From a virus, in IMG/VR virus record IMGVR_UViG_3300032304_002452, positions 1 to 56,865 of that record: a stretch of 56,865 bases of DNA, one strand, 5' to 3'. Numbering within the stretch: position 1 is the stretch's first letter; each line of letters begins with the position of its first letter. This document shows positions 3,945 through 42,399 of this stretch, in pieces. Under the pieces are notes generated by a model that worked only from the letters and a program-made list of their open reading frames with translations, was not told the DNA's origin and searched no databases. Both the position numbers and the translations under genes were made by a program.

Positions 3945-4694
3945 TCAATTTAGTAAAATATTTAATCTATCTTCTCGATTTGGTAAAATATCTTCTTCTT
4001 TGAGTATTGAAATTCCGTCAAAAATTATGACTTCTGATGTAATACTGTTTTCTATTTTAGAAACTTTGTAAGAAATAGTGTTATCTTGTTGAATTGAAAA
4101 ATCTAGAATCATATAATTTCCCGACCTATCTTCTTTAGTAGAAACTATTTCATTAACTTGAAATTTAGTTTTACAGATTTCTTTACCATCTTCATCATAA
4201 TCAAAGTAATTAGAGATTATTTCAACAGCGCTTTCAACTGAATTAACAAAATGAATAATGTCAAACAAATTACAACTTAATTTACAATTGTTTTGTATAT
4301 AATCAACATTGTGAATTTTTATATCTGACTTCTCGATTGTAAAATCTGAAAGATTTTTTTTACAAATCAAAGATTCAGTTAGAGCATACGTTGATTTTGT
4401 CTTGTAATTAAAGATGGTTCCGGATTTTAAAATGGTTTGTAATAAATCATAAAACCTCTTGGCGCATTTTTTAGAAACGGAAAAGTTGAAAAGGTAACCT
4501 ATCTCTGGAACATTATAAATAGGAGTAGGCGCTGTCCTGGGAAATCCCTGATATCCAGAATAACTATTCTCAGATTTCCAAAATGTAATTACATCAGTAG
4601 TAGACCATGTATCATTACTTAATGATAATGAAAGATTGAATTTTTTCAACCTTTCATTCCATTTATCTAAATATTTCTTATCAAATGTTCTCAT
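3945..4694 (-). CDS. Hypothetical protein of the NAD-salvage operon
   Basis: A 249-residue protein I do not recognise. It starts MRTFDKKYLDKWNERLKKF, without the targeting motif, and has no signal or membrane segment. Its ATG overlaps the NAMPT stop as TAATG, so it is co-transcribed and probably translationally coupled with the NAD-salvage genes. Whether it acts in NAD metabolism is unknown. Four scattered cysteines (CKKN, CKLSCN) show no clear metal motif. It ends the operon; I see no strong terminator after it. Confidence 0.75.
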   Translation of the reverse strand: MRTFDKKYLDKWNERLKKFNLSLSLSNDTWSTTDVITFWKSENSYSGYQGFPRTAPTPIYNVPEIGYLFNFSVSKKCAKRFYDLLQTILKSGTIFNYKTKSTYALTESLICKKNLSDFTIEKSDIKIHNVDYIQNNCKLSCNLFDIIHFVNSVESAVEIISNYFDYDEDGKEICKTKFQVNEIVSTKEDRSGNYMILDFSIQQDNTISYKVSKIENSITSEVIIFDGISILKEEDILPNREDRLNILLN

Positions 4695-6151
4695 TAAACC
4701 ATTTCGAGTTCTTCAACATCAAAATTGATTTCAGCTCTTTGACGAATTTCTTGGAAATTATAGTCAACTAAAAGATGTCCATTTTCAAATACTTTCACCA
4801 TCACATCACCTTCATCATCCTTAGCCTTTTGAATTGTTTCAAAACCATTATCAGTTTGAACCAATTTCAAATGTCCTTTTTTAGAAGTTTTGAATGATTG
4901 AACGATGTTTCCATATTTATCCACTTCAAGTGGATGTTTTTGAACATCACGTTCTTCACCATTTATGGTGATTGAACAACATTTGAAGGCGAATTTTTGA
5001 GTATCTCGGTCAACTTTTTGAAGAAGAGCGCCACCCATACCAAACACAATATTTTCAGCTGAGAATCCTTCTTCTACCATCATATCTAAGATTTCAATGA
5101 TAGATTCATAATTAACACCATCACCTTGTATTACACGAATATGGTCGTCAATTACTTTGAAACCTTTTGAGTTAGTACGTCCTCCGAATTTATCCCAAAG
5201 TATATTGAATACTTTTTTCAAGGTTTGAACAGGATCTCCACTATCAGGACGAATTACAAGACGACCATTTAAGTTAAGAACTTTTTCACGAAGTTGACCA
5301 CCCCACAATTCTTCACAAGCCCTTAGAATATTATAAGAGTCAGATACACAAGCTCTTATTCCTGTTGGGTAAGCATCTAACATATTTTCATATGCTTTTA
5401 CTTCATTTTCTTCTCCCCAAGAAGTGATAGTTGAGTGTTCAGAAGCTGGAATAGAAAAAGCCAACATTTCATCTGTGTTGTAAATCTCTTGAGCTAGAAG
5501 AATAGCTGTTGCTGTATCAGTACCACGGAAGTTTACCAAGTGAGCTAAACCGCCAATGCCTGAACTTTCAACAGATGATACGCCACGGAATCCAAAATCA
5601 TGTAACATACAGTTCACAATTCCGGTGATTTGTTCTTTATTATAGTCAGTGGTTTTCTTCAAGTATTTGATAAATACTTTTTTAATTTCACGAGAAAGAG
5701 TTCCCACGGTAATAGGATACCAAACTTGCAGTAAAATCGATTCAAGATAGTTAGTCAACCAACGAGTAGGTTCACCACCATTGTTGTGAATATAAACGAG
5801 TACATTTCCCGTTGGTACAACCGTACCTTCTGGTACAGCTTTGATAGTTACAGGAAGATAACCATCATATTTTTCAAGGATATATCTCCAACCAGATTCG
5901 TTGAAGTGTCCGGGTCCTAAGTGAGCATCCCAGAATTTTTTAGCTTTTTGAATTTTTTCTTCGGTTACAACTTGACCAGTTAGGTAAGTTTTCAAAATGT
6001 AGTTAAGACCGATTACGAGTGTTTCTTTAAACATACCACCACGAGATTCGAGGTAAGATGTTACTGTGTCTGTTCCTTGTGGATATTGTGGCCAGTGAGT
6101 TACTTTGTAACTATCAGACAACATTAGGATGTTATTAAAAATTGTATTCAT
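4694..6151 (-). CDS. nadV: Nicotinamide phosphoribosyltransferase (NAMPT)
   Basis: A 485-residue protein of normal family length. It makes NMN from nicotinamide and PRPP in the cytoplasm. Family signatures are visible: LMLSDSYKVTHWPQYP at the start, the YLESRGG motif, LHDFGFRGVSSVESSGIGG with the substrate-binding Asp, SIPASEHST, and the RPDSGDP phosphoribosyl-binding motif. It lies 10 bases downstream of the NMN adenylyltransferase gene. Together they form the two-step nicotinamide-to-NAD route known from vibriophage KVP40 and shown in other phages to rebuild NAD after defence NADases act (NARP2). A TATATTTA sequence about 24 bases upstream might add a second promoter. Confidence 0.96.
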   Translation of the reverse strand: MNTIFNNILMLSDSYKVTHWPQYPQGTDTVTSYLESRGGMFKETLVIGLNYILKTYLTGQVVTEEKIQKAKKFWDAHLGPGHFNESGWRYILEKYDGYLPVTIKAVPEGTVVPTGNVLVYIHNNGGEPTRWLTNYLESILLQVWYPITVGTLSREIKKVFIKYLKKTTDYNKEQITGIVNCMLHDFGFRGVSSVESSGIGGLAHLVNFRGTDTATAILLAQEIYNTDEMLAFSIPASEHSTITSWGEENEVKAYENMLDAYPTGIRACVSDSYNILRACEELWGGQLREKVLNLNGRLVIRPDSGDPVQTLKKVFNILWDKFGGRTNSKGFKVIDDHIRVIQGDGVNYESIIEILDMMVEEGFSAENIVFGMGGALLQKVDRDTQKFAFKCCSITINGEERDVQKHPLEVDKYGNIVQSFKTSKKGHLKLVQTDNGFETIQKAKDDEGDVMVKVFENGHLLVDYNFQEIRQRAEINFDVEELEMV

Positions 6152-6161
6152 AAATGTTGAT

Positions 6162-7073
6162 TTATTTTTGTGATGTAAATATACTAAATAATTTTTGGTG
6201 TTCCACCATAAACATTTCTGATTTTAACTCAGAAATATCAAACCATTTCAACTCTTGAATATCATCAGAAGGTTGAATTGGTCCCCAAAGATGTTTACAA
6301 GTGAAAAGTGTGGTCATTATTTTATCATCTTCTCCACGAAATCTCCAATCTTGTATTTGACAAGATGTTACATATTTGTAATCTCCTGATTCTGAATTAG
6401 AACCAGTTTCTTTCATATAAACTCTACGAGCGGCTGATTGAACTGATTCATCTTCTGGTTTAACAAATCCTCCGATAAATCTCCATTTAGATTCATCATA
6501 TTTCTTAGCGAGAAGAACTTTTGTTTCATCTGCATTGAGAGGTGCTATATCAACCGTTGGTATAACACGAGGATAAAGATTATAAGTATGATAGATAACA
6601 CCTGAACGAAAATCTTTTGAGTTTTTAACTTCTTCTGAGATTAATTTTCTAATGTCGGTTCCAGCCCAAGTTCCAAGTGGTTCTAATTCTTTAGTTTTAA
6701 ATTTACCGCCACCATTTAAGTAGTGTGGAATAAATGAATCTCGGCTACCATACATAAGAACTTCACCATGAGGATAAACTTCACGAATTCGTTTATCTAA
6801 TTCTTGAGCCCAACGGTTATTATCAGATTGGTCTTGAATGGCTAAGATGATAGAATCTGGATAATGGGTTTGAACCATCTTTTTACGGGTATCAAAATCG
6901 AGAGGATTTTTCTTAGTTCCAACAAACCGTGGAACTCCCAGGAAGATAATTGTTTTTTTGTGATTTCCGGTTACTTGTTTAATAACGTAGTGGTGACCTT
7001 CGTGTAATTCGTGAACTTGGAATCTCGCGATTGCTACACCGATTGAGTATTTAGAAGGATCTATATTATCCAT
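6162..7073 (-). CDS. Bifunctional NMN adenylyltransferase / Nudix-domain protein (NatV-like)
   Basis: A 303-residue protein. Residues 1-170 are an NMN adenylyltransferase of the NadM type: ARFQVHELHEGHH carries the HxGH nucleotidyl-transfer motif and GTWAGTDIRKLI the C-terminal ISxTxxR-like motif. Residues about 175-303 are a Nudix fold (KWRFIGGFVKPEDESVQSAA). The Nudix box is degenerate: where REUxEExG is expected the protein reads RRVYMKETGS, so two catalytic acidic positions are replaced and ADP-ribose hydrolysis is doubtful. It converts NMN and ATP to NAD. First gene of the salvage operon, behind a Bacteroidota-type promoter, therefore probably early. Confidence 0.93.
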   Translation of the reverse strand: MDNIDPSKYSIGVAIARFQVHELHEGHHYVIKQVTGNHKKTIIFLGVPRFVGTKKNPLDFDTRKKMVQTHYPDSIILAIQDQSDNNRWAQELDKRIREVYPHGEVLMYGSRDSFIPHYLNGGGKFKTKELEPLGTWAGTDIRKLISEEVKNSKDFRSGVIYHTYNLYPRVIPTVDIAPLNADETKVLLAKKYDESKWRFIGGFVKPEDESVQSAARRVYMKETGSNSESGDYKYVTSCQIQDWRFRGEDDKIMTTLFTCKHLWGPIQPSDDIQELKWFDISELKSEMFMVEHQKLFSIFTSQK

Positions 7074-7125: not shown

Positions 7126-7418
7126 GTTTCTCTCAAATATTTTTCAATTTCTCTGGCTTTTCTACGAGTTGTTTTGACATCTAATTGTAAACGATATTCT
7201 TTAACTGAATCTTCATCTTCTAACTCAGTTAGAGTGACTTCAATTGTTTCTTTTATTTTAATAGAATCTTTAATTTGATTGAATGGTAGTTCTAATTGAC
7301 CAAAACAGGTATTCATAATTAGAGCGTCGTTCTCATTCAACAATTCAATTTCTTCTCCTTTGTTTAAGATTACAGTATCAATTACTTTAATGTCTTTTAT
7401 AATTTGATATTTTGGCAT
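7107..7418 (-). CDS. Small hypothetical protein
   Basis: A 103-residue protein beginning MPKYQIIKDIKVIDTVILNKG. It has a beta-rich first half and an acidic/basic helical end (TRRKAREIEKYLRETLERM). The opening resembles small beta-barrel phage proteins that start with a KGxE turn, but no family is recognised. It is divergently arranged with the gene at 7435, sharing an AT-rich TATATA region between them. Confidence 0.65.
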   Translation of the reverse strand: MPKYQIIKDIKVIDTVILNKGEEIELLNENDALIMNTCFGQLELPFNQIKDSIKIKETIEVTLTELEDEDSVKEYRLQLDVKTTRRKAREIEKYLRETLERMI

Positions 7419-7434
7419 ATAATTTTAATATATA

Positions 7435-8664
7435 ATGGATATGATAAAGGGATATAAAAGTTTTTTAATTTTAGAAAAATTAAAAGAATTGCAGATTATT
7501 CTTGAAGGAAATATTGAATTCTCTGATCTTTTCAAAGAAAAGCTTTTCGATATCAAGTCAAAGTCTAAATTGGCTGAAGAGATTTATGATCTTCAAGATA
7601 AATATTATGAAGATGATAAAGTTCTTAAAAATAATTATATTGATGTAACTGATAAGGAAGATAAAGTTACTTTTATATCTCAGGTCAAATTCGACCAGAT
7701 ACAATCTGAGTCTGACGAAGATATAGACCCCTATAAAGTTAAAGGTAGAGTTGAGATTGGAGTTGGTAGATGTGTTAGAACCCTATCAGATATAGCAAAC
7801 ATAAAGTTCACTGATAAGGAACTAGAAGACTTTGTTAATTTGTATAAATCTAAGAACATAACTGAGGGAGAAGAGTTTGATTTAGTTAGTGGTAAAGATA
7901 TTAAATATTGGTACAGTGAAGATAATTACTTCGATGGATATGGAGAAGGATCTTTATCCAATTCTTGTATGGCTGATGTTGATAAATCCTATTTTGACAT
8001 CTATTCTGACTCTAAATCTTGTCAATTATTAATTCTCACAAAAAAGATGGAGGGAAAGAAGTTATTAATTGGAAGAGCTTTAGTTTGGAATCCATCCGAA
8101 ATGAAACTAAAAGGAGATGTAGATTTTAAAGGTACTGAGTATTTTATGGATAGAATTTATTGTATGAAGGATTCTGATGAAAAGAAGTTTTTAAATTATG
8201 CTGATGAACAAGGTTGGTTAGTAAAAGCAAATAACAATTCTGATAATATTAGGGGAATGATCCTAAAATTAAGAGGTGAGACAGTCAAACTAAAAATAGT
8301 TTGTAAAGTTGAAGGGGATTGTGATGATTATCCTTATATGGACACACTTAAATACCTTTCTAAAGAAAAAGATGAGATATCAAACATTGGATTTAAAAAA
8401 GGATATCTATTAGAAGATACAGATGGTGATTTTTCTCGATGTGACGACTGTAATGGAAAAGGATCTTCAGAATGTGGTGATTGTGATAGTGGAAAGGTTT
8501 ATTGTGAAACTTGTGATGGTGATGGTGAGATCACAAAGAAAAGTGGTAAATTAAAGGATTGTAAAGATTGTAAAGGTAAGGGTGAAATAGACTGTCCTAC
8601 TTGTAAGGGTAGTGGATATTCTGGATTATGTGATGAATGTACAGGTTTAATTAAAAGACTTTAA
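7435..8664 (+). CDS. DnaJ-type zinc-finger protein with targeting peptide
   Basis: A 409-residue protein beginning MDMIKGYKSFLILEKLKE, a targeting-like peptide with an I-L-E site. A TATATAA box overlaps the first ATG, so the in-frame ATG at 7441 may be the true start. The central part is paralogous to the gene at 18004: both share a YWY motif, an (N/T)SC element, a (R)A/S-L-(V/L)W segment and (D)RIY...FxxYAxxxGW. The last 70 residues hold four CxxCxGxG-like motifs (CDDCNGKG, CGDCDSGK, CETCDGDG, CKDCKGKG, CPTCKGSG), the cysteine-rich zinc domain of DnaJ, without any J domain. Probably a protein-binding zinc module; the core function is unknown. Confidence 0.8.
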   Translation: MDMIKGYKSFLILEKLKELQIILEGNIEFSDLFKEKLFDIKSKSKLAEEIYDLQDKYYEDDKVLKNNYIDVTDKEDKVTFISQVKFDQIQSESDEDIDPYKVKGRVEIGVGRCVRTLSDIANIKFTDKELEDFVNLYKSKNITEGEEFDLVSGKDIKYWYSEDNYFDGYGEGSLSNSCMADVDKSYFDIYSDSKSCQLLILTKKMEGKKLLIGRALVWNPSEMKLKGDVDFKGTEYFMDRIYCMKDSDEKKFLNYADEQGWLVKANNNSDNIRGMILKLRGETVKLKIVCKVEGDCDDYPYMDTLKYLSKEKDEISNIGFKKGYLLEDTDGDFSRCDDCNGKGSSECGDCDSGKVYCETCDGDGEITKKSGKLKDCKDCKGKGEIDCPTCKGSGYSGLCDECTGLIKRL

Positions 8665-10302: not shown

Positions 10303-11062
10303 ATTTCTGTTTAATTTCTAAATACCAGTTTGGAAATCCTCCATTCCACCAAGGTGATATATTAACATAGAATTTTAATCCATGTTTTTCTTCCTTTTCT
10401 TGTTCTTGTGAAAGTCCTTCACCCCATCCATCTGAGCATTGTCCTTCTAAATAATCTTTGATTGAATCAATCTCATCACCTGTTAAATCTCTATTAGTTT
10501 CAATTTCACCAGTAATAATATTTTCATCTTTAAGTCCGGTTATTTCCATTCTTAAAATCTTAAAATCTTGATTAAATTCTCTATAAGGATAAAATTGTTT
10601 CAAATCTTCTTCATTAAAAGTGGTTTGAATGGTATCAAATTCATCTTTACCAATTTCAAATTCTTCAAAATCTAAATCATACATTCTGAAAAACTTAGAC
10701 ATATCATTGTTATAAACTTGTTCAATCCATCTTTCAAAATATTCATCAAAATTAGCTCTAACTTCTGAACTACTTAATTTGTGTGCTTGATATTCTTCTT
10801 CATCTTCATCATAATCACCAGCGGTTGAATATCCTAAATCTAATTCATTAGCGATATCTTGACATATATCATTACCTCTTTCATACTTTAAGAAATCAAT
10901 TAAATTATCACCGTCTAAACCATTACCTTCATCTACATTGAATACCTTTTTAACTGGAAATTCAAATGTATAAATTGATTCACGGCTTTTGGCTTTTGGG
11001 TTTTGTAACCATTCACCAAATGTTCTTTTAATTTCGGCTTCAAATATTTTTAAGTGTTTCAT
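10301..11062 (-). CDS. Acidic hypothetical protein with capsid-targeting-like N-terminus
   Basis: A 253-residue acidic protein beginning MKHLKIFEAEIKR (I-F-E site). The C-terminus is Gly/Trp/aromatic rich (WGEGLSQ, SPWWNGGFPNWYLEI), a pattern also seen in small Bacteroidota phage proteins of unknown role. Its ATG overlaps the preceding stop by four bases (ATGA). Last gene of the PPK2 operon. Confidence 0.8.
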   Translation of the reverse strand: MKHLKIFEAEIKRTFGEWLQNPKAKSRESIYTFEFPVKKVFNVDEGNGLDGDNLIDFLKYERGNDICQDIANELDLGYSTAGDYDEDEEEYQAHKLSSSEVRANFDEYFERWIEQVYNNDMSKFFRMYDLDFEEFEIGKDEFDTIQTTFNEEDLKQFYPYREFNQDFKILRMEITGLKDENIITGEIETNRDLTGDEIDSIKDYLEGQCSDGWGEGLSQEQEKEEKHGLKFYVNISPWWNGGFPNWYLEIKQK

Positions 11063-11292
11063 AAAGTGATAATAAATGATTTAATTTTTTCTAATTGAAC
11101 ACTATTAAAGTCATTCTCTTCTAAAAGTGCCATAATATTACTTTTCAATGTTTCAACATCATCAATAAATTCATCAGAATATTCATCTGGTTCAAAGGTA
11201 TTATTTCTAACCACATTTGAATCTGTATTAACTTGGTCAGAACCTAAGTGTGTTCCTCCGAAAAAGTTTTCATATTTTTTAAGCTTCTTCAT
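11059..11292 (-). CDS. Small hypothetical protein with targeting-like N-terminus
   Basis: I place the start at 11292, giving 77 residues beginning MKKLKKYENFFGGTHLG. This ATG overlaps the PPK2 stop as TAATG, while the longer upstream reading lacks the shared peptide. The rest is acidic and helical (DEYSDEFIDDVETLKSN). Function unknown. Its end overlaps the next gene by four bases, so translation is coupled along the operon. Confidence 0.7.
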   Translation of the reverse strand: MKKLKKYENFFGGTHLGSDQVNTDSNVVRNNTFEPDEYSDEFIDDVETLKSNIMALLEENDFNSVQLEKIKSFIITL

Positions 11293-12449
11293 TAATCTAA
11301 AATATTTATTACTTCTGGGTACCAATGACACTTGTTTGGATCTTTTCCCTCATATTCAACTTTATCCAACACATATCTGATGGCGTTTAATCTACCCACT
11401 TTTTTATCATTTGAATTAACAATGATCCAAGGTGAAACTCTTGATGCGGTTTCAACAAACATCTTATTTTTGAATTCTCCAATTAGCTCAAATTGGTCGA
11501 CAACTTTAGCATCGTTTGGAGAGAATTTCCAATATTTAAGTGGAGATTCTTGTCTTAATTTGAATCGAAGTAATTGTTTTTCTTTAGTAATAGAGAACCA
11601 GAATTTAATTAATATTACTCCTTCACGAATCATCTTTTCTTCCCAATCAAGAACATTCCCCATGAAATCATTATATTGGTCCTCTGAACAGTAACCCATC
11701 GCCGGTTCAACGACTGCTCTATTATACCAAGAACGGTCAAAGAAAACTATCTCACCTGGGTTTGGTAAGTATTTTTCGTATCTACCAAACCAATTAGTTT
11801 TTTCCTCTTCAGTTGGAACTCCCAAAGCAACAACTCTGAAATGTTTAGGGTTCATATATTCAACAAATCTTTTGATTGTCGATCCTTTACCAGCGGCATC
11901 ACGTCCTTCAAAAACTATAGCAACTTTCTTTTTATTTTTAACTACCCATTCTTGTAACTTCATTAACTCAACTTGAAGATCATATTTTTCACCTTCATAT
12001 TTCTTTCTTGGTAGAATTGACCATTCGCCTTCAACTTTATCAAAATGTTCATCATCTGATAGAGTTTCTTTTTGTCTTTTAATTCGAGCGGCTAATGTAT
12101 TGATGTAAGCTGTAAATTCTTCTTTAATTCTACGTCTTGTGTTTCTTTTTTTCAGAACTATAATTTGAGATATTTTTCTGAAAAGAGCTTCAACATTTAG
12201 TTCTCTAATAACATCTTCTCCAAACTCTTTAGTCATGACACCTAATAAAAAATTAACATCGATGTTTTTAAACCCATCGTTAAATTTAATTTTATTGGTA
12301 ATTGTGTCATATTCTATACTTTGAAGTATTCCTAATTTAAGCTCGTTTAATGTTTTGATTAGGCTTTTTTCAACTTCATCTAATTCTTCATCAGATAAGT
12401 TGTTGAAATCGAATTTTTCATTAAATTGATTAAATAATTGGAGTCTCAT
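11292..12449 (-). CDS. ppk2: Polyphosphate kinase 2 (PPK2) with capsid-targeting-like extension
   Basis: A 385-residue protein. Residues about 145-385 are a PPK2 domain: Walker A EGRDAAGKGST (181-191), Walker B FFDRSWYNRAVVEP (236-249) and a lid RFKLRQESPLKYWKFSPND. It moves phosphate between polyphosphate and nucleotides (class I PPK2-like). An extra N-terminal 145 residues, acidic then basic, precede the kinase and begin MRLQLFNQFNEKFDF, matching the targeting-like peptides of its neighbours. All catalytic motifs look intact. It sits third in a tightly coupled five-gene operon (13831 to 10301) of targeting-peptide proteins. PPK2 is rare in phages. Packaging in the head is inferred. Confidence 0.93.
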   Translation of the reverse strand: MRLQLFNQFNEKFDFNNLSDEELDEVEKSLIKTLNELKLGILQSIEYDTITNKIKFNDGFKNIDVNFLLGVMTKEFGEDVIRELNVEALFRKISQIIVLKKRNTRRRIKEEFTAYINTLAARIKRQKETLSDDEHFDKVEGEWSILPRKKYEGEKYDLQVELMKLQEWVVKNKKKVAIVFEGRDAAGKGSTIKRFVEYMNPKHFRVVALGVPTEEEKTNWFGRYEKYLPNPGEIVFFDRSWYNRAVVEPAMGYCSEDQYNDFMGNVLDWEEKMIREGVILIKFWFSITKEKQLLRFKLRQESPLKYWKFSPNDAKVVDQFELIGEFKNKMFVETASRVSPWIIVNSNDKKVGRLNAIRYVLDKVEYEGKDPNKCHWYPEVINILD

Positions 12450-14197: not shown

Positions 14198-14923
14198 ATG
14201 ATTAGGAATACAGAAGAGGCTAACAAATACTATCAACTTGTGAATCAATATATTGATGAATATACTGATACTCACAAAATCCGTCCTGTTAAATTGGGAA
14301 AATACCTTAAAAACTCTGATAAATTGAAAAACTTCTTAGAAAGAAAGGGTTTGAAAGATGTTCAAAATATCAACCGTGTTATCTCTGATGTGGTTGAAGA
14401 TAGAATTGCTATGGAAAAAGATTTAGTTAGGACTTTTGAAAGTTTTAAGTTATTTGAATCGGACGAATTTAAGATTCTAAATCTTAGACAATGTCTATAT
14501 AAAGGTATTGAAAAGTCAAATATTCACCATGAAAAGATTTTGGCTGATTACTTTGATGTTTCATTAAGTCACGTTGATATAATCAATTCTGATAAACATG
14601 TATTTAAAATTGAATCTTTGGGTAGTGATGTTGAATGTGTGATTTATACTTCAAATGAATTAGAAATAATTCGTGAGAATATGAAAGAATATTGTTTTGA
14701 TCAAGTCTTCAATAAGAAGGTAAAGTTGGAAGGTATTGGTGTTGAATTGAATGTTAATATCAAAGATTTTATTGATAATGAAAAATTTGGAAACCACATT
14801 AGTGAGGTTTTAACTGTGGAAAAGGTAAAAGAAATTATAAGAATTTTAATTTCTTGTGAAAAACCTAAATATAATCCTGATGAAAAAGATAATTTCATTG
14901 GTTTAAATCCATCACATTATTAA
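14198..14923 (+). CDS. Hypothetical protein with internal targeting-like motif
   Basis: A 241-residue protein. Residues 1-75 form a basic helical module (KIRPVKLGKYLKNSDKLKNF, then NINRVISDVVEDRI). Next comes LVRTFESFKLFESDEFK near residues 77-93, very like the N-terminal targeting peptides but internal and with an L-F-E site. The rest is acidic/aromatic with a short C-terminal LNPSHY. Processing at the internal site would release a 150-residue protein. The box TATATAATA ends 2 bases before the ATG, so the transcript may be leaderless. It overlaps the Tad2-like gene by four bases, convergently. Confidence 0.8.
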   Translation: MIRNTEEANKYYQLVNQYIDEYTDTHKIRPVKLGKYLKNSDKLKNFLERKGLKDVQNINRVISDVVEDRIAMEKDLVRTFESFKLFESDEFKILNLRQCLYKGIEKSNIHHEKILADYFDVSLSHVDIINSDKHVFKIESLGSDVECVIYTSNELEIIRENMKEYCFDQVFNKKVKLEGIGVELNVNIKDFIDNEKFGNHISEVLTVEKVKEIIRILISCEKPKYNPDEKDNFIGLNPSHY

Positions 14924-15189
14924 TCTAAAATTTTATCAATCTTTATATCTCTTTGATTTTGAATTGTGAGATATTTGTAACCTCCAATTTCCCAATCATC
15001 TGCAAGTATTTGTGTTAGGTTAATTTCATAATTTACAATTTCTGTTCCGGTTTCAAAAAAGAAATTAATTTTAGTTTTATCTTGATTTAAGTAAATATGT
15101 GCTGATTTATAACCATCAACGATATACCAAGAATTTCTTCTTATTTTCTTTCCATCTTTTAGTGCAGGTAATACTTCTTCGAATGTCAT
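14920..15189 (-). CDS. Tad2-like anti-Thoeris protein (DUF2829)
   Basis: An 89-residue protein with the layout of DUF2829: MTFEEVLPALKDGKKIRRNSW at the N-terminus and LADDWEIG near the C-terminus, the two most conserved blocks of the family. DUF2829 includes Tad2, a phage protein that binds the cyclic ADP-ribose signal of Thoeris and blocks the defence; Tad2 of phage SPO1 has similar length. The central strands (SAHIYLNQDKTKINFFFE) are less typical, so ligand choice is uncertain. It is downstream of and overlaps a small ORF by four bases. It complements the NAD-salvage operon as a second counter to TIR-type NADases (inference). Confidence 0.75.
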   Translation of the reverse strand: MTFEEVLPALKDGKKIRRNSWYIVDGYKSAHIYLNQDKTKINFFFETGTEIVNYEINLTQILADDWEIGGYKYLTIQNQRDIKIDKILD

Positions 15190-15449
15190 ATTAATTCTTT
15201 TATTTTCAGGTCTCTTATCTCTTTCTTAAAAAAATCTCCTGTATTTTGAACTCCTGGGTCAGGAATTCTTTTTTGTAATAAACGGACCAAGATATGATCA
15301 GGAACTCCCGTGATATCTATGGTATGTTTACATCGTTTCGATTTTTTTATATGTAGTTTGGTTTCAGTAAGTTGGTAACTTCTGATTTCTTTAGTTTCTA
15401 CTTTTGAATCTAAAGACTTTTTTATTTTTGATTTGGTAAAAATATTCAT
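15186..15449 (-). CDS. Small basic hypothetical protein
   Basis: An 87-residue basic protein (MNIFTKSKIKKSLDSKVETK). A middle TIDITGVPDHILVRLLQKRI and the end DLKIKELI do not match a family I know. Four-base overlap with the Tad2-like gene indicates coupled translation. It may work in the same counter-defence, but no evidence beyond position. Confidence 0.65.
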   Translation of the reverse strand: MNIFTKSKIKKSLDSKVETKEIRSYQLTETKLHIKKSKRCKHTIDITGVPDHILVRLLQKRIPDPGVQNTGDFFKKEIRDLKIKELI

Positions 15450-35554: not shown

Positions 35555-36142
35555 TTAAAGTGGAAGTTCTTCTTCACCACCTTCTTCTTCACCTTGACCT
35601 TCTTCTTCTTCACCTACTTCTTCAAATTCTCCTTGTCCTTGAGACTGTCCTTGTCCTTGAGCCTGTCCTTGTCCTTGAGCCTGTCCTTGTCCTTGAGCCT
35701 GTCCTTGTCCTTGAGCCTGTCCTTGTGGTTCAGCTTCTGTTTGAACCTGAACTTGACCTTGACCTTGTGGTTGAACTTGAGTTTGACCTTGTGGTTGACC
35801 TTGTCCCTGAGTTTGAGCTTGTGGTTGAGCTTGAGCCTGTCCTTCTGGTGATCCTTGTGCATCACCTGTTAAAGCACCGGCAGGAACCTGATCAACATTA
35901 GTGAAATTAAGGGTAACATACTTTACAATTTCTTCTGCGATATCTATATCACCAAAGAATTGTCTTAAATTTTTTCCAGTATTATCTTTTACTTTTTTAA
36001 CATATGCGTTAATAAGAGATTGAGGAATATCAATCAAAGTTCTTACTTTATAGATATCGTTCACTTGAAGAACGGATTCTTTAATTATTTCATCTTTTCT
36101 CTTGTTATTGCGATAAGATTCAAATTTTCTAATGTGTTTCAT
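35555..36142 (-). CDS. Targeting-peptide protein with Gln/Gly/Ala low-complexity tail
   Basis: A 195-residue protein beginning MKHIRKFESYRNNKRKDE. Residues 20-90 form a compact region (VRTLIDIPQSLINAYVKKVK ... EEIVKYVTLNF). From about residue 98 it is low complexity: (GQ)AQ/PQ repeats with the six-residue unit GQAQGQ repeated four to five times without change, then an acidic tail of Glu and Gly. Such tails are disordered. Acidic, flexible, targeting-peptide proteins would fit a prohead core component, but that is an inference. The repeat DNA may vary in length. Confidence 0.75.
   Translation of the reverse strand: MKHIRKFESYRNNKRKDEIIKESVLQVNDIYKVRTLIDIPQSLINAYVKKVKDNTGKNLRQFFGDIDIAEEIVKYVTLNFTNVDQVPAGALTGDAQGSPEGQAQAQPQAQTQGQGQPQGQTQVQPQGQGQVQVQTEAEPQGQAQGQGQAQGQGQAQGQGQAQGQGQSQGQGEFEEVGEEEEGQGEEEGGEEELPL
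35636..35727. repeat. 18-bp tandem repeat in coding DNA
   Basis: Unit CTTGAGCCTGTCCTTGTC repeated four to five times with almost no change, coding for GQAQGQ on the - strand. More degenerate CCTTG repeats continue to about 35850. A likely site of slippage or copy-number change. Confidence 0.85.
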
Positions 36143-38632: not shown

Positions 38633-40840
38633 TCAATCCAATCCCCAACCTTTACGAGCTTCTTGAATTCTTCTACTAGATGTTAGATGTCTTCTTTTAA
38701 CATCTAGTAGTTGTTTATAATCAACTCCCTCTGTATATTCAATTCTTTTTAAGACTTCATCAATTAGATTTTGTATTTCGGTGTTTTGTAAACCTGTAAA
38801 TAAATCCTCTACAATGCCCTTAAAGTCATTCTTACCATAAATTGCTGTTAAGTTTACAAGTGTCATTACTGTATCATCGTGTGATGAACCATCTGCTGCA
38901 TATCTAATGTTTCCAGCAGATGTTGTGTGTTTTATGAATGTTGTCATTTCTTGGATAGTTTCGTGTTCACTTACAATAATTGATCTATTGTGTAAACGGT
39001 CTTGATAATCTTTAACCATTAAGTTTTTATTTTCACCTACTTTCAGACCAATCTTTTCTTCTAAAGCATCAACTCTATGTTTAAATCGGAAAAATACACC
39101 GGATCCATAGTCATTATTTCCACCGAAAACATTTGGTAAGTGAGCTAGTAACTCATTGCCATAGGTATTCACCTCTAAAACCGATTTAACATTATCTGAA
39201 TTAAAATGTTCAAAAGATAAGAGATAGACTATTTCCGCCAAATCAGCCACAGATATAATATTACATCTGTAAATGCCAATCTGTTCTAATCTAACAAAAT
39301 CTAAAACATCTTTATAATTAGCTTTTTGTGAGTTTATTAAGTCAATTGGCTTAGGAACCATTTTGAAAATATTGATAACTGAGTAGTCTAATCCCAATCC
39401 TTCAGCAACATCAATAGATAAGACTATTTTGTAATCTTTTCTTAATTGTGAATTATAAACCGATTCATCGGTTGACCATTTTAGGTCTTGATATGAGAAT
39501 CTTAACTTTCTATCGAATTCGTCAATAGGTTTCCATTCAAATTGTTTTTTGTTTCTGGTTAATTCTTCAATAAGTGCCTCATCTAATAAGCTTCTAGATG
39601 AATTGATGAATCTTAAATCAAATTCTTGGTTGAAAGCTTCTTCACCACCAATATCTTTTATTGTTTCTTTTTTCCAAGTTGTAATCTCTGTGATTTGTGG
39701 TAGTTTTACTTCACCAATTGATTCTCTGATAATATCATCTTCAGAACAATCAACCGAATTGAATACATTAATAACCCATTTTTTCAATTCTTCGTTATAG
39801 TATAACTCTGAGTTGTTATTTGGAAATCTTTCTTTTAGATGATTTAAAACCTGTTCAGATGTTATATTGAATTCTTCTAACTTCTTAGTATTCAACCTAA
39901 TGTAAGTTACAAATCTTTTTGGTACTTGCCACCAATAAACTCTTTTAGCTACATAAGATGATTTCTCACCTTCTGGCTTTTCAGCTTCCATAAGTAGTTT
40001 ATGGAACAGATTAAATCCACTTGGTGTGGATGTTATGATAATTTTAGAGTTGTCAATGTTAGCAATGGTTGGGAAAACAGATTTATAGAACTTATCGGCA
40101 ATATTATCTGGTAGATAAGCAAACTCATCTAGATATAGAAAGTCAGCAGATTGTCCAATAGAAGCTGTTTTGGTTGTGGCAAATCCTTTAATTCTACTTT
40201 TGTTTTCAAAAACTCTAAATTTTTGGTTCCAGTTAAGAATACCTTGTTGAAGAAAAAAAGGTAGTCTTTGATATATCTCTCCGATTTTATCAAGTACTTC
40301 AACTGCGGTATCTAATTTATTGGCGGTTACAAGAACGTTTTTATTATTATTGAAAAGAACAAAGTGTAACATCATAATAGATGATGAGATGGTATTGTGT
40401 GATAATATACCGTTTGTGTAGTATCTATGGTTTATGTGATCTATTGATAAGTCAAACATAGATGATTTGAATTTATCTTTTTTAATAAGTAAAACCTTTT
40501 CTAATCCATTTGTCGTTTGTATTGATTGACCTACTTTCAGGTCCTTGACTCTTATTTGGCTAAATTTATCATCAAATACTAAGTGGTTGTCAGCGCAAAC
40601 TAATCTGTGTGTGTCTGTATTAAGAATATAATTTGTGTATGGTTGTGTTATATGAATCGAATCAACATTTTCAAATCCTGTGTCAGTTGATGTTCTATAT
40701 CCATCAATTGAAATAGAACTTAATATTTTTTTTGAGTCATCATTTTCGTCTAATTTAATATTTCTATATTCTATTTTTTCGATGACCTGAATACAAAATT
40801 TGAGAGTGTATATTATTATTGATTTAAAAAATTCAAACAT
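38633..40840 (-). CDS. terL: Large terminase C-terminal part with intein C-fragment
   Basis: A 735-residue ORF. Residues 1-149 are the intein C-fragment: helical lead (IIIYTLKFCIQVIEKIEYRN), a block B-like LVCADNHLVFD, IRVKDLKVGQSIQTTNG, and the end SIDHINHRYYTNGILSHN with the His-Asn needed for splicing. The C-extein starts with Thr: TISSSIMMLHFVLFNNNK continues Walker A. The ATPase part has Walker B SADFLYLDEFAYLPD and the coupling motif ITSTPSGFNLFH; the nuclease part has SIDVAEGLGLDYSV, VSVADLAEIV and DGSSHDDTVM. Alone it lacks Walker A, so it needs trans-splicing with the product of 41828-42340. The spliced protein would be about 698 residues (T4 gp17 is 610). Overlaps the endonuclease gene by 25 bases. 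Confidence 0.93.
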   Translation of the reverse strand: MFEFFKSIIIYTLKFCIQVIEKIEYRNIKLDENDDSKKILSSISIDGYRTSTDTGFENVDSIHITQPYTNYILNTDTHRLVCADNHLVFDDKFSQIRVKDLKVGQSIQTTNGLEKVLLIKKDKFKSSMFDLSIDHINHRYYTNGILSHNTISSSIMMLHFVLFNNNKNVLVTANKLDTAVEVLDKIGEIYQRLPFFLQQGILNWNQKFRVFENKSRIKGFATTKTASIGQSADFLYLDEFAYLPDNIADKFYKSVFPTIANIDNSKIIITSTPSGFNLFHKLLMEAEKPEGEKSSYVAKRVYWWQVPKRFVTYIRLNTKKLEEFNITSEQVLNHLKERFPNNNSELYYNEELKKWVINVFNSVDCSEDDIIRESIGEVKLPQITEITTWKKETIKDIGGEEAFNQEFDLRFINSSRSLLDEALIEELTRNKKQFEWKPIDEFDRKLRFSYQDLKWSTDESVYNSQLRKDYKIVLSIDVAEGLGLDYSVINIFKMVPKPIDLINSQKANYKDVLDFVRLEQIGIYRCNIISVADLAEIVYLLSFEHFNSDNVKSVLEVNTYGNELLAHLPNVFGGNNDYGSGVFFRFKHRVDALEEKIGLKVGENKNLMVKDYQDRLHNRSIIVSEHETIQEMTTFIKHTTSAGNIRYAADGSSHDDTVMTLVNLTAIYGKNDFKGIVEDLFTGLQNTEIQNLIDEVLKRIEYTEGVDYKQLLDVKRRHLTSSRRIQEARKGWGLD
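40394..40840 (-). other. Intein C-fragment (IntC), 149 residues
   Basis: Encoded by 40840 down to 40394. The splice junction is HN | T, between 40394 and 40393. The stretch from ISIDGYRTSTDTG onward matches the usual intein order of blocks (TDTG..., ADNH, VKDLKVGQ, YYTNGILSHN). The first 35 residues are a hydrophobic/helical segment found in the linker of intact terminase inteins. Confidence 0.85.
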
Positions 40841-41805
40841 TTTTCTATTATTTCTTTTTTGTTCTTTTTGAATTCAGAATCCCAGATAACTAAAACTTTG
40901 AATCCCTCTTCTTCAGCAACTCTTATTTTCACGGCATCTTTTTCCCATATTTCTTTGGATGTAGGACCATTTTCTTTAAAAAATGGGTGTGGATAATCAT
41001 CTTCTTTAAATTTTTCTGGATTCGCATGAAAATAATCACCGTTGTATTCTATTATTTTCATTTCATTGATATCAACAAAGTCGTATGAGTAAAACTCCTT
41101 TCCTTTTATTGATAAAAAGTATTCTTTATTTTTTGTTGCAAAATATACTTTATTAAGTAATTCATTTTTTTGATATCCATTTAATACTTCATAAAATAAT
41201 TCTTGACTGATTCTTGAAAATCCACACTTCATATTTCCATTTTCCAATAGACTTTTTTGCCATTTAGATTGTCTTTCTGAGAATATTTTAATTCCCTCTT
41301 CTTCTCCATATTTATCTATACATTTTTCTAAATTAAATGTGGATTGTCTTTCTTTTCTTTTTATTAAAGACTCTTCTTCTGAGAATCCTCTATCCATCCA
41401 GTATGATAGTTGAGTGCTGTTGGATTTATATTTATTTATATTTGATATAAATAAATTTCTTTCATCGTCTGATTTCCAATTAATAAAATTTTTTGAAAAA
41501 GGACTTCTAGATTTTCTCTCTTCTTCTGTTGTCCTACTTTTATGATTTGGATTATTCTCACCAGAAAACATCTTTGAAAACATTTTTTTATAAACTTCAC
41601 TCTTCATGTGTTTTCCTGAGTTTTTAGAGGTTGATTTTAGATCTTCATTCGCCATTATGGGAGCATCAGGAAACATTTTTTTATATTCTTTTGTTGTTAT
41701 GTTTCCATGTTTGAATTTTAAATGTTTTCCGTATATCCTCTTACACTTTTCTCCACATATCCTACAAGTTACTAATTCATTATTATCTATTATTTCAAAA
41801 CTCAT
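40816..41805 (-). CDS. Homing endonuclease inside the split terminase gene
   Basis: A 329-residue protein between the two terminase parts. N-terminal zinc finger of MucR/ROS type (TCRICGEKCKRIYGKHLKFKH), then a NUMOD3-like stretch (MFSGENNPNHKSRT), basic helices, and a C-terminal Vsr-like nuclease domain: YSYDFVDINEMKIIEYNGDY with catalytic Asp and Glu, then HPFF, IWEKDAVKIRVAEEEG and VLVIWDSEF. This is the architecture of the endonucleases described in fractured genes with split inteins. Its ATG is 22 bases after the end of the N-half, and it overlaps the C-half by 25 bases, so all three are one transcription unit. Confidence 0.9.
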   Translation of the reverse strand: MSFEIIDNNELVTCRICGEKCKRIYGKHLKFKHGNITTKEYKKMFPDAPIMANEDLKSTSKNSGKHMKSEVYKKMFSKMFSGENNPNHKSRTTEEERKSRSPFSKNFINWKSDDERNLFISNINKYKSNSTQLSYWMDRGFSEEESLIKRKERQSTFNLEKCIDKYGEEEGIKIFSERQSKWQKSLLENGNMKCGFSRISQELFYEVLNGYQKNELLNKVYFATKNKEYFLSIKGKEFYSYDFVDINEMKIIEYNGDYFHANPEKFKEDDYPHPFFKENGPTSKEIWEKDAVKIRVAEEEGFKVLVIWDSEFKKNKKEIIEKCLNFLNQ

Positions 41806-41827
41806 ATAAACTTTTTTATTTTATATA

Positions 41828-42340
41828 TTAAAACGATGGCTTCCCCTCAATCAGGAAAATAGTATCATATATTTTTATTTTAATCCTTTCTAATATTGAT
41901 AATTTTCTTTGTTGAGATATCATAAAATAGTACAATTTTCCTACCCTTGTGTAAATTTTTAATCCGTTTTTCTCTATCTCTATTATGGTATTAAAATTGG
42001 AGCATTTACCTGTTTGTCTACTCGCCATTAGAATATTAAATCGGTTGTTAAAGAAGTTATCTAAGATTTCTTTTTGATAGTCTCTCAATCTTAATTGTAC
42101 AGGCTCACCTTTTTCACCTTTAACCCAACAGTATTTCTCAGCGAAATGGTGAATATCCATTTTACATTTTACATATTCGTCAATTTCAGTAGCTGACATT
42201 CGGAATGTTAACCCGGCTTTTCTTAGTCCAATTGTATTCTCATAGAAAGGATTTTCTATACGACTCAAAACAAAACCGTTATTAATCTTTTCAGAGGCTT
42301 CATCTATCATTTTTGTGTTCCAAATTATTTGTTTTGACAT
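41828..42340 (-). CDS. terL: Large terminase N-terminal part with intein N-fragment
   Basis: I use the ATG at 42340 (MSKQIIWNTKMIDEASEK), which has a good purine leader; the longer reading from 42397 runs into the promoter. The 112-residue N-extein ends RLRDYQKEILDNFFNNRFNILMASRQTGK cut short here: the last residues MASRQTGK are Walker A up to the invariant Lys. Then the intein N-fragment starts with Cys (CSNFNTIIEIEKNGLKIYTR) and runs 58 residues to a stop. T4 gp17 reads SRQLGKTT at the equal place, so the intein splits Walker A between Lys and Thr. Only trans-splicing can make an active ATPase. Confidence 0.93.
   Translation of the reverse strand: MSKQIIWNTKMIDEASEKINNGFVLSRIENPFYENTIGLRKAGLTFRMSATEIDEYVKCKMDIHHFAEKYCWVKGEKGEPVQLRLRDYQKEILDNFFNNRFNILMASRQTGKCSNFNTIIEIEKNGLKIYTRVGKLYYFMISQQRKLSILERIKIKIYDTIFLIEGKPSF
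41831..42004 (-). other. Intein N-fragment (IntN), 58 residues
   Basis: Starts at Cys codon 42004-42002 directly after the Walker A Lys. Block A is CSNFNTIIEI. The helical part (RKLSILERIKIKIYDTIFLI) is followed by a stop at 41828. Block B is not in this fragment but in the C-fragment, so the split is N-proximal and atypical compared with most natural split inteins, which break after block B. Confidence 0.85.
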
Positions 42341-42358
42341 AAAGGAAATAAACTTTTT

Positions 42359-42382
42359 TATATATACTTTACATATATATAC
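42359..42382. promoter_or_regulatory. Divergent late-type boxes
   Basis: TATATATACT at 42359-42368 and TATATATAC at 42374-42382 on the + strand, between the divergent terminase and 42400 genes. The palindromic cores could serve both directions; TATATAAAAAAG on the - strand is 18-20 bases from the terminase ATG. Confidence 0.45.
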
Positions 42383-42399
42383 AAATACTACATTCACTT

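Follow-up and report, generated by a model that had tools for sequence, protein, structure and literature searches.

The 89-aa open reading frame at positions 14920 to 15189 of the window (the whole stretch of 56,865 nucleotides analysed here, IMG/VR virus record IMGVR_UViG_3300032304_002452) is a divergent, minimal member of the Tad2-like family PF11195. It forms no conserved unit with its neighbour orf87 or with the NAD salvage genes of the same phage. Our tentative reading, to which we give a probability of about 0.45, is that it is accessory counter-defence cargo, a sponge for a small nucleotide-type molecule that would act apart from the NAD pair. An earlier note on this DNA had joined the gene and the NAD operon into two layers against TIR defence; it is partly supported, its observation being good and its interpretation over-reaching. 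The features concerned are as follows.

4694 to 6151, minus strand: nicotinamide phosphoribosyltransferase (NAMPT; PF18127/PF04095; phrog_448, 510.6 bits).
6162 to 7073, minus strand: NMN adenylyltransferase-Nudix protein (NMNAT-Nudix; NUDIX domain PF00293; phrog_395/phrog_1198).
14198 to 14923, plus strand: orf241, convergent conserved neighbour and other border of the slot (relatives in 36 contigs; 77% identical in the related contig L003).
14920 to 15189, minus strand: Tad2-like protein, 89 aa, ATG start, with the domain in residues 1-68 (window positions 14986-15189).
14937 to 15195, minus strand: 259-bp stretch, the Tad2-like gene minus its last codons, aligned with 14 bp in L003 (11752-11765).
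15186 to 15449, minus strand: orf87, 87 aa, overlapping the start of the Tad2-like gene by 4 bp (copies 78% identical in L003 and 36% in the related contig L020).
15480 to 16946, minus strand: GltX-type glutamate-tRNA ligase, upstream neighbour (NCBIfam equivalog TIGR00464, 363.6 bits, cut-off 289.95).

The DUF2829 motifs reported by the earlier note at the two ends of the frame are present (N-terminally MTFEEVLPALKDGKKIRR, and LADDWEIG in residues 62-69), and the assignment to the Tad2-like family holds: Pfam PF11195 matched with 40.6 bits (E 3.8e-10; curated gathering cut-off 25 bits), residues 1-68 aligning with positions 1-72 of the 73 in the profile. A six-frame search of the whole 56,865-base virus record recovered PF11195 at the identical position with 40 bits. 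The frame is intact, with 4-bp overlaps at both its ends, and the eight invariant core columns of the domain are all kept. NCBIfam and PADLOC gave no match for this ORF, and the PHROGs below E 0.001 were phrog_1048, phrog_643, and phrog_6670, two of them without function and one annotated as a transcriptional regulator. Direct sequence comparison with PDB chains was weak (top chain 8v3e, Tad2, E 0.037), so family membership rests on profile and fold.

An AF2 monomer model, computed from an alignment of 38 family sequences, had a mean pLDDT of 69.9, with values of about 60-90 in residues 1-70 and below 50 in residues 73-89. The predicted elements follow the order alpha1, beta1, beta2, beta3, beta4, alpha3, and beta5; alpha2 is absent from the model, in which no helix lies between beta2 (residues 29-34) and beta3 (residues 41-47). 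Foldseek against the PDB placed 18 Tad2 chains at ranks 1-18 (probability 1.00, E 0.003-0.02), followed by a probability of 0.28 at rank 19, and in VIA-align ten Tad2-family entries reached Z 6.3-7.6, the next row Z 3.8. Rows ranked below the Tad2 entries, for example 8qkh_s of the phage 812 neck (Z 3.8), were too weak to use. Named Tad2-like proteins were also among the top rows for the model in a viral structure library. The earlier note had proposed a fold prediction against Tad2, and for the model it places Tad2 structures on top in both programs; because the model was built on a Tad2-family alignment, this match supports the assignment, but not independently.

Sponge activity in the Tad2 family covers gcADPR, cyclic dinucleotides, and HisADPR, according to passages of PMC12043709 and PMC13299392 and to PDB titles. 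SPO1 Tad2 (gp34.65; 8sme, 8smf, 8smg, 8wje) shares with the window protein the domain family and the fold order (matches of 62-64 residues with Z as high as 7.6 and with 22-30% identity over the structural match), but it has an alpha2 segment, a GWNGK loop, and three residues (W, S, and D) in the strand 4-alpha3 stretch, all of which the window protein lacks. ModTad2 of a Myroides odoratus prophage (8v3e, 9eib), which binds HisADPR of type II Thoeris according to a passage of PMC13299392, resembles the model in fold (VIA Z 7.4) and differs from it in the same features. HgmTad2/AcrIIA7 and SptTad2 (8kbi-8kbk, 8wjd, 9kzr) are likewise similar in fold (Z 6.3-7.3 for 8kbi, 8kbj, 8kbk, and 8wjd); they carry the long insertion between beta2 and beta5 at which cyclic dinucleotides bind in Tad2, as described in a passage of the review PMC12043709, whereas the window protein has only about six residues there.

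The same passage lists the loop beta1-beta2, the loop beta3-beta4, strand beta4, the loop beta4-alpha3, and alpha3 as the lining of the gcADPR pocket, and places Tad2 dimer formation at alpha2 and beta2 (PMC12043709). A functional Tad2 is expected to be a homotetramer and to have alpha2, the helix of the V-shaped dimer, which the monomer model of the window protein does not show. Our assessment of the pocket is based on this passage and on the columns common to the solved proteins, not on a contact list. Fragments of SPO1 Tad2, ModTad2, SptTad2, and HgmTad2 gave 22 aligned columns identical among the four, and the window protein keeps 10 of them, mostly in the fold core (F3, L10, K11, G13, R18, W21, K28, A63, D65, and W66; the pairing of K28 and the alignment of the beta1-beta2 loop are uncertain, with a four-residue insertion there). 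The N and G that follow W in GWNGK are changed, as are the M and F of beta2, and in the strand 4-alpha3 stretch W, S, and D are replaced by Y54, N57, and Q60. Motif residues that differ in this way might be unimportant. The window protein scored 40.1 bits with a profile of Bacillota homologues, from which the X-masked L105 was left out, versus 17.6 bits with a profile of the four solved Tad2 proteins. Given this divergence, that is, no alpha2, an altered beta1-beta2 loop, and 10 of 22 columns, a Thoeris ligand is not readable from the Tad2-like sequence; since the loops described as lining the pocket differ, the binding mode is probably not quite that of SPO1 Tad2. The earlier idea of a Tad2-like sponge against the Thoeris signal thus stands as to family and fold and fails as to ligand features, with most shared motif residues changed and alpha2 and the long insertion missing. 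Missing pocket residues, taken together with a lack of protection, had been named there as a sign against it; residues shared by the solved Tad2 proteins are missing in part, in a protein whose predicted fold is still that of Tad2.

The genomic setting marks the gene as accessory. The closest relative found, L003 (a contig of 42,946 bases; GltX 86%, orf87 78%, and orf241 77% identical), has no Tad2-like gene and keeps both flanks, the stop of orf87 lying at 11764 and that of orf241, on the opposite strand, at 11774, 9 bp apart. The borders of the 259-bp stretch that separates the two contigs were read by eye from the sequences and the alignment, and 11 bp at the L003 junction (ATAAAATTTTA) are identical to the 3' end of the Tad2-like gene of the window. 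In L020 (orf241 62%, orf87 36-44% identical), a different gene occupies the slot. It lies at 10711-11451 on the minus strand and encodes a nucleotidyltransferase-like protein of 246 aa that matches PolyA_pol (19.2 bits, under the cut-off) and a nucleotidyltransferase family, both weakly. Because L003 keeps the flanks without the gene and L020 carries another gene there, the orf87-orf241 interval is a variable slot of a T4-like phage. Gain of the Tad2-like gene in the lineage of the window is the simpler reading, resting on two relatives, and loss in L003 is possible because of the 11 bp that match the 3' end of the gene. Among 48 records (the window and 47 relatives), PF11195 exceeded its cut-off in the window only; a sub-threshold match in the relative G012 (13.9 bits, with stops inside) was taken as chance.

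For orf87, no Pfam, NCBIfam, or PADLOC family was found at the thresholds used, the PHROGs match was weak (14.7 bits), and a search dedicated to its relatives returned none, its copies being those seen in the L003 and L020 loci. Since both loci carry orf87 without a Tad2-like gene, orf87 is an older neighbour and not a Tad2 partner. A conserved two-gene unit is therefore rejected, and with it the earlier suggestion that the coupled ORF at 15186 is an added part. The GltX of the window is bacterial-type and phage-encoded, with relatives in 12 viral loci; when these were used as synteny probes, other genes followed GltX in the loci beyond L003.

The NAD salvage genes noted earlier in the same phage are indeed on the contig. 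NAMPT and NMNAT-Nudix are adjacent on the same strand and form one operon, separated from the Tad2-like gene by about 8 kb or more that contain other genes; we take NARP2 to be the name for this NAMPT-NMNAT pair. Against the NCBIfam bifunctional models, NMNAT-Nudix scored far under the cut-off. NAMPT-type genes (phrog_448) occurred in 9 of the 48 records including the window, that is, in 8 of the 47 relatives, and PF11195 was absent from all eight related NAMPT contigs. In a wider set of 80 NAMPT-bearing viral contigs (80 of 268; 74 newly searched and 6 from the related set), two had PF11195, and none of 27 RecA-type control contigs did (27 of 37 loci; the remaining 10 belong to contigs covered before), all these counts being taken from contig fragments of unequal length. 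Co-occurrence of NAMPT and PF11195 was accordingly rejected as evidence of coupling, and the special link between the Tad2-like gene and NAD salvage that the earlier note had drawn was not borne out by these contigs.

In a phage collection, 1,900 records matched NAMPT and 390 matched ModTad2, and Listeria phage LMSP-25 was among both sets of matches, under two accessions. Passages of PMC12028318 describe NARP2 as well as AcrIIA7 homologues in the core genome of Schizotequatrovirus, and AcrIIA7 carries DUF2829 according to a passage of PMC6739104. From these cases, NAD salvage and DUF2829 in one phage are not new. One contig, L354 (IMGVR_UViG_3300010162_000373), has NAMPT, a 246-aa gene, NMNAT-Nudix, and a fusion of Clp_N with a Tad2-like domain in one run on one strand (4596-5312, 5309-6286, and 7166-8593, all minus). 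The fusion, of 238 aa, shares 4 bp with the end of NMNAT-Nudix; NAMPT lies further upstream. This is a real physical link between a Tad2-like domain and NAD salvage and counts against a reading without any link, in one distantly related contig; because the fusion follows NMNAT in a NAMPT operon, the pairing survives as an idea of low probability.

It is against this background that a true Tad2 has to be weighed, one that binds gcADPR or HisADPR, blocks ThsA activation, and forms a first layer ahead of NAD repair. The predicted fold matches SPO1 Tad2 with gcADPR and ModTad2 with hisADPR, NAMPT and NMNAT are on the same contig, and other phages have both kinds of gene. However, the GWNGK loop, alpha2, and the three residues of the strand 4-alpha3 stretch (W, S, and D) are not conserved in the window protein, and the NAMPT counts show no association (0 of 8 related contigs, 2 of 80 overall), which leaves this reading unlikely.

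Tad2-like domains also occur in larger proteins and in other settings. In Bacteroides phage BS-TP2 (L116, 2288-2788), the domain is C-terminal in a 166-aa protein of the head-tail connector region, and in phage csAssE-Sib (L015, 3446-4201) it is fused C-terminally to a WDGH domain. A protein-binding or anti-CRISPR module like AcrIIA7, and no nucleotide sponge, would fit the joining of related domains to WDGH, Clp_N, and a connector-region protein, together with the DUF2829 of AcrIIA7 described in PMC6739104 and the fold match to 8kbi/8kbk. Yet the PDB structures named AcrIIA7 were, by their titles, solved with 1',2'-cADPR and cGG, which favours a sponge, and no CRISPR link was seen for the window gene; we regard such a module as rather improbable.

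The top sequence relatives in a genome scan were chromosomal genes of Bacillota (L069-L114), mostly of 73-78 aa. All 46 are closely followed by an SDR oxidoreductase gene, and 37 of the 46 have QueT no more than 2.5 kb away; in Kurthia gibsonii (L071), for example, the Tad2-like gene, SDR, and QueT lie at 5001-5219, 5278-6024, and 6155-6661. These proteins are up to 40% identical to the window protein and likewise lack the long middle segment, but they retain G-W-x-G and P-T-x-C-D, which the window protein does not. A host role near queuosine-precursor transport is possible for them, and among the papers listed when the literature was searched for DUF2829 together with QueT or with short-chain dehydrogenase, none was relevant. 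An ordinary metabolic role of the window protein, which would then bind a metabolite of nucleotide or deazapurine type as the Bacillota relatives may, would agree with these neighbourhoods and with the better fit to the Bacillota profile. Nevertheless, the Bacillota set was chosen by peptide patterns of the window protein itself and is therefore a biased clade. SDR and QueT are not found beside the phage gene, whose sporadic presence fits cargo better; the metabolic role is in our view improbable. Bacillota chromosomes beside SDR and the head-tail connector region do not look like counter-defence, and in this they speak against the cargo-sponge reading.

Short phage proteins closer in build to that of the window were found with the LADDWEI pattern, for which 80 of 118 matching stretches were taken as loci; 42 of the 80 ORFs matched the Bacillota-built profile, the short phage members without GWNGK among them being L172, L195, L169, L126, L124, and L125. 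L172, L195, L126, and L169 share with the window protein the short domain, R-x-x-W with LADDWEI, and the missing GWNGK loop, although they are mostly remote from it in sequence (phmmer 14-28 bits). The nearest phmmer match among the LADDWEI proteins, L172 (1397-1817), apparently has two minimal Tad2-like domains in tandem. In Tenacibaculum phage Gundel_1 (L115, 2184-2471 and 2489-2755), a Tad2-like gene directly follows an Acb2/Tad1 hairpin-domain gene (27.4 bits, cut-off 27), possibly as an adjacent sponge pair. Minimal Tad2-like domains, without alpha2 and the GWNGK loop, might form a separate class of phage sponges that bind their own, likely NAD-derived ligand and are recruited by phages that rebuild NAD; this is suggested by the NAMPT-NMNAT pair on the window contig and by the 4-bp overlap of the L354 fusion with NMNAT, and we consider it a long shot. 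A decaying or neutral insert that keeps a Tad2-like open frame by chance, as the presence of the gene in one contig only of the 48 related records and the low-confidence C-terminal tail of the AF2 model might suggest, is very improbable, given the intact frame with its neat overlaps and the conserved core.

We return to the preferred reading, a cargo protein of Tad2 fold that is probably a nucleotide-type sponge. The gene would have been gained as counter-defence cargo. Judging from the family, its product would be homo-oligomeric and act as a stoichiometric sponge for a small nucleotide-type molecule made by the host; with the signal bound, the defence effector would stay off. The ligand would probably not be held exactly as in SPO1 Tad2, and the NAMPT-NMNAT pair may act independently, on any NAD-depleting defence. 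If the protein is active, Tad2-like sponges would extend to proteins without the features so far used to explain ligand binding, and the window protein would become a test of how little of the Tad2 fold suffices. A PF11195 match by itself does not equal anti-Thoeris activity, since Bacillota chromosomes also encode the domain and other modules are found fused to it.

Three further features of the window were observed. The large terminase (38633-42397, minus strand; Pfam terminase match in 38636-40840) is seemingly split by intein-like ends, as read by eye, into two halves that enclose an endonuclease-like ORF (40816-41805). A phage PPK2 polyphosphate kinase (11292-12449, minus strand; 256 bits) is conserved among many orf241 relatives, and the protein encoded at 35555-36142 on the minus strand has a long Q-G-Q-A repeat tail.
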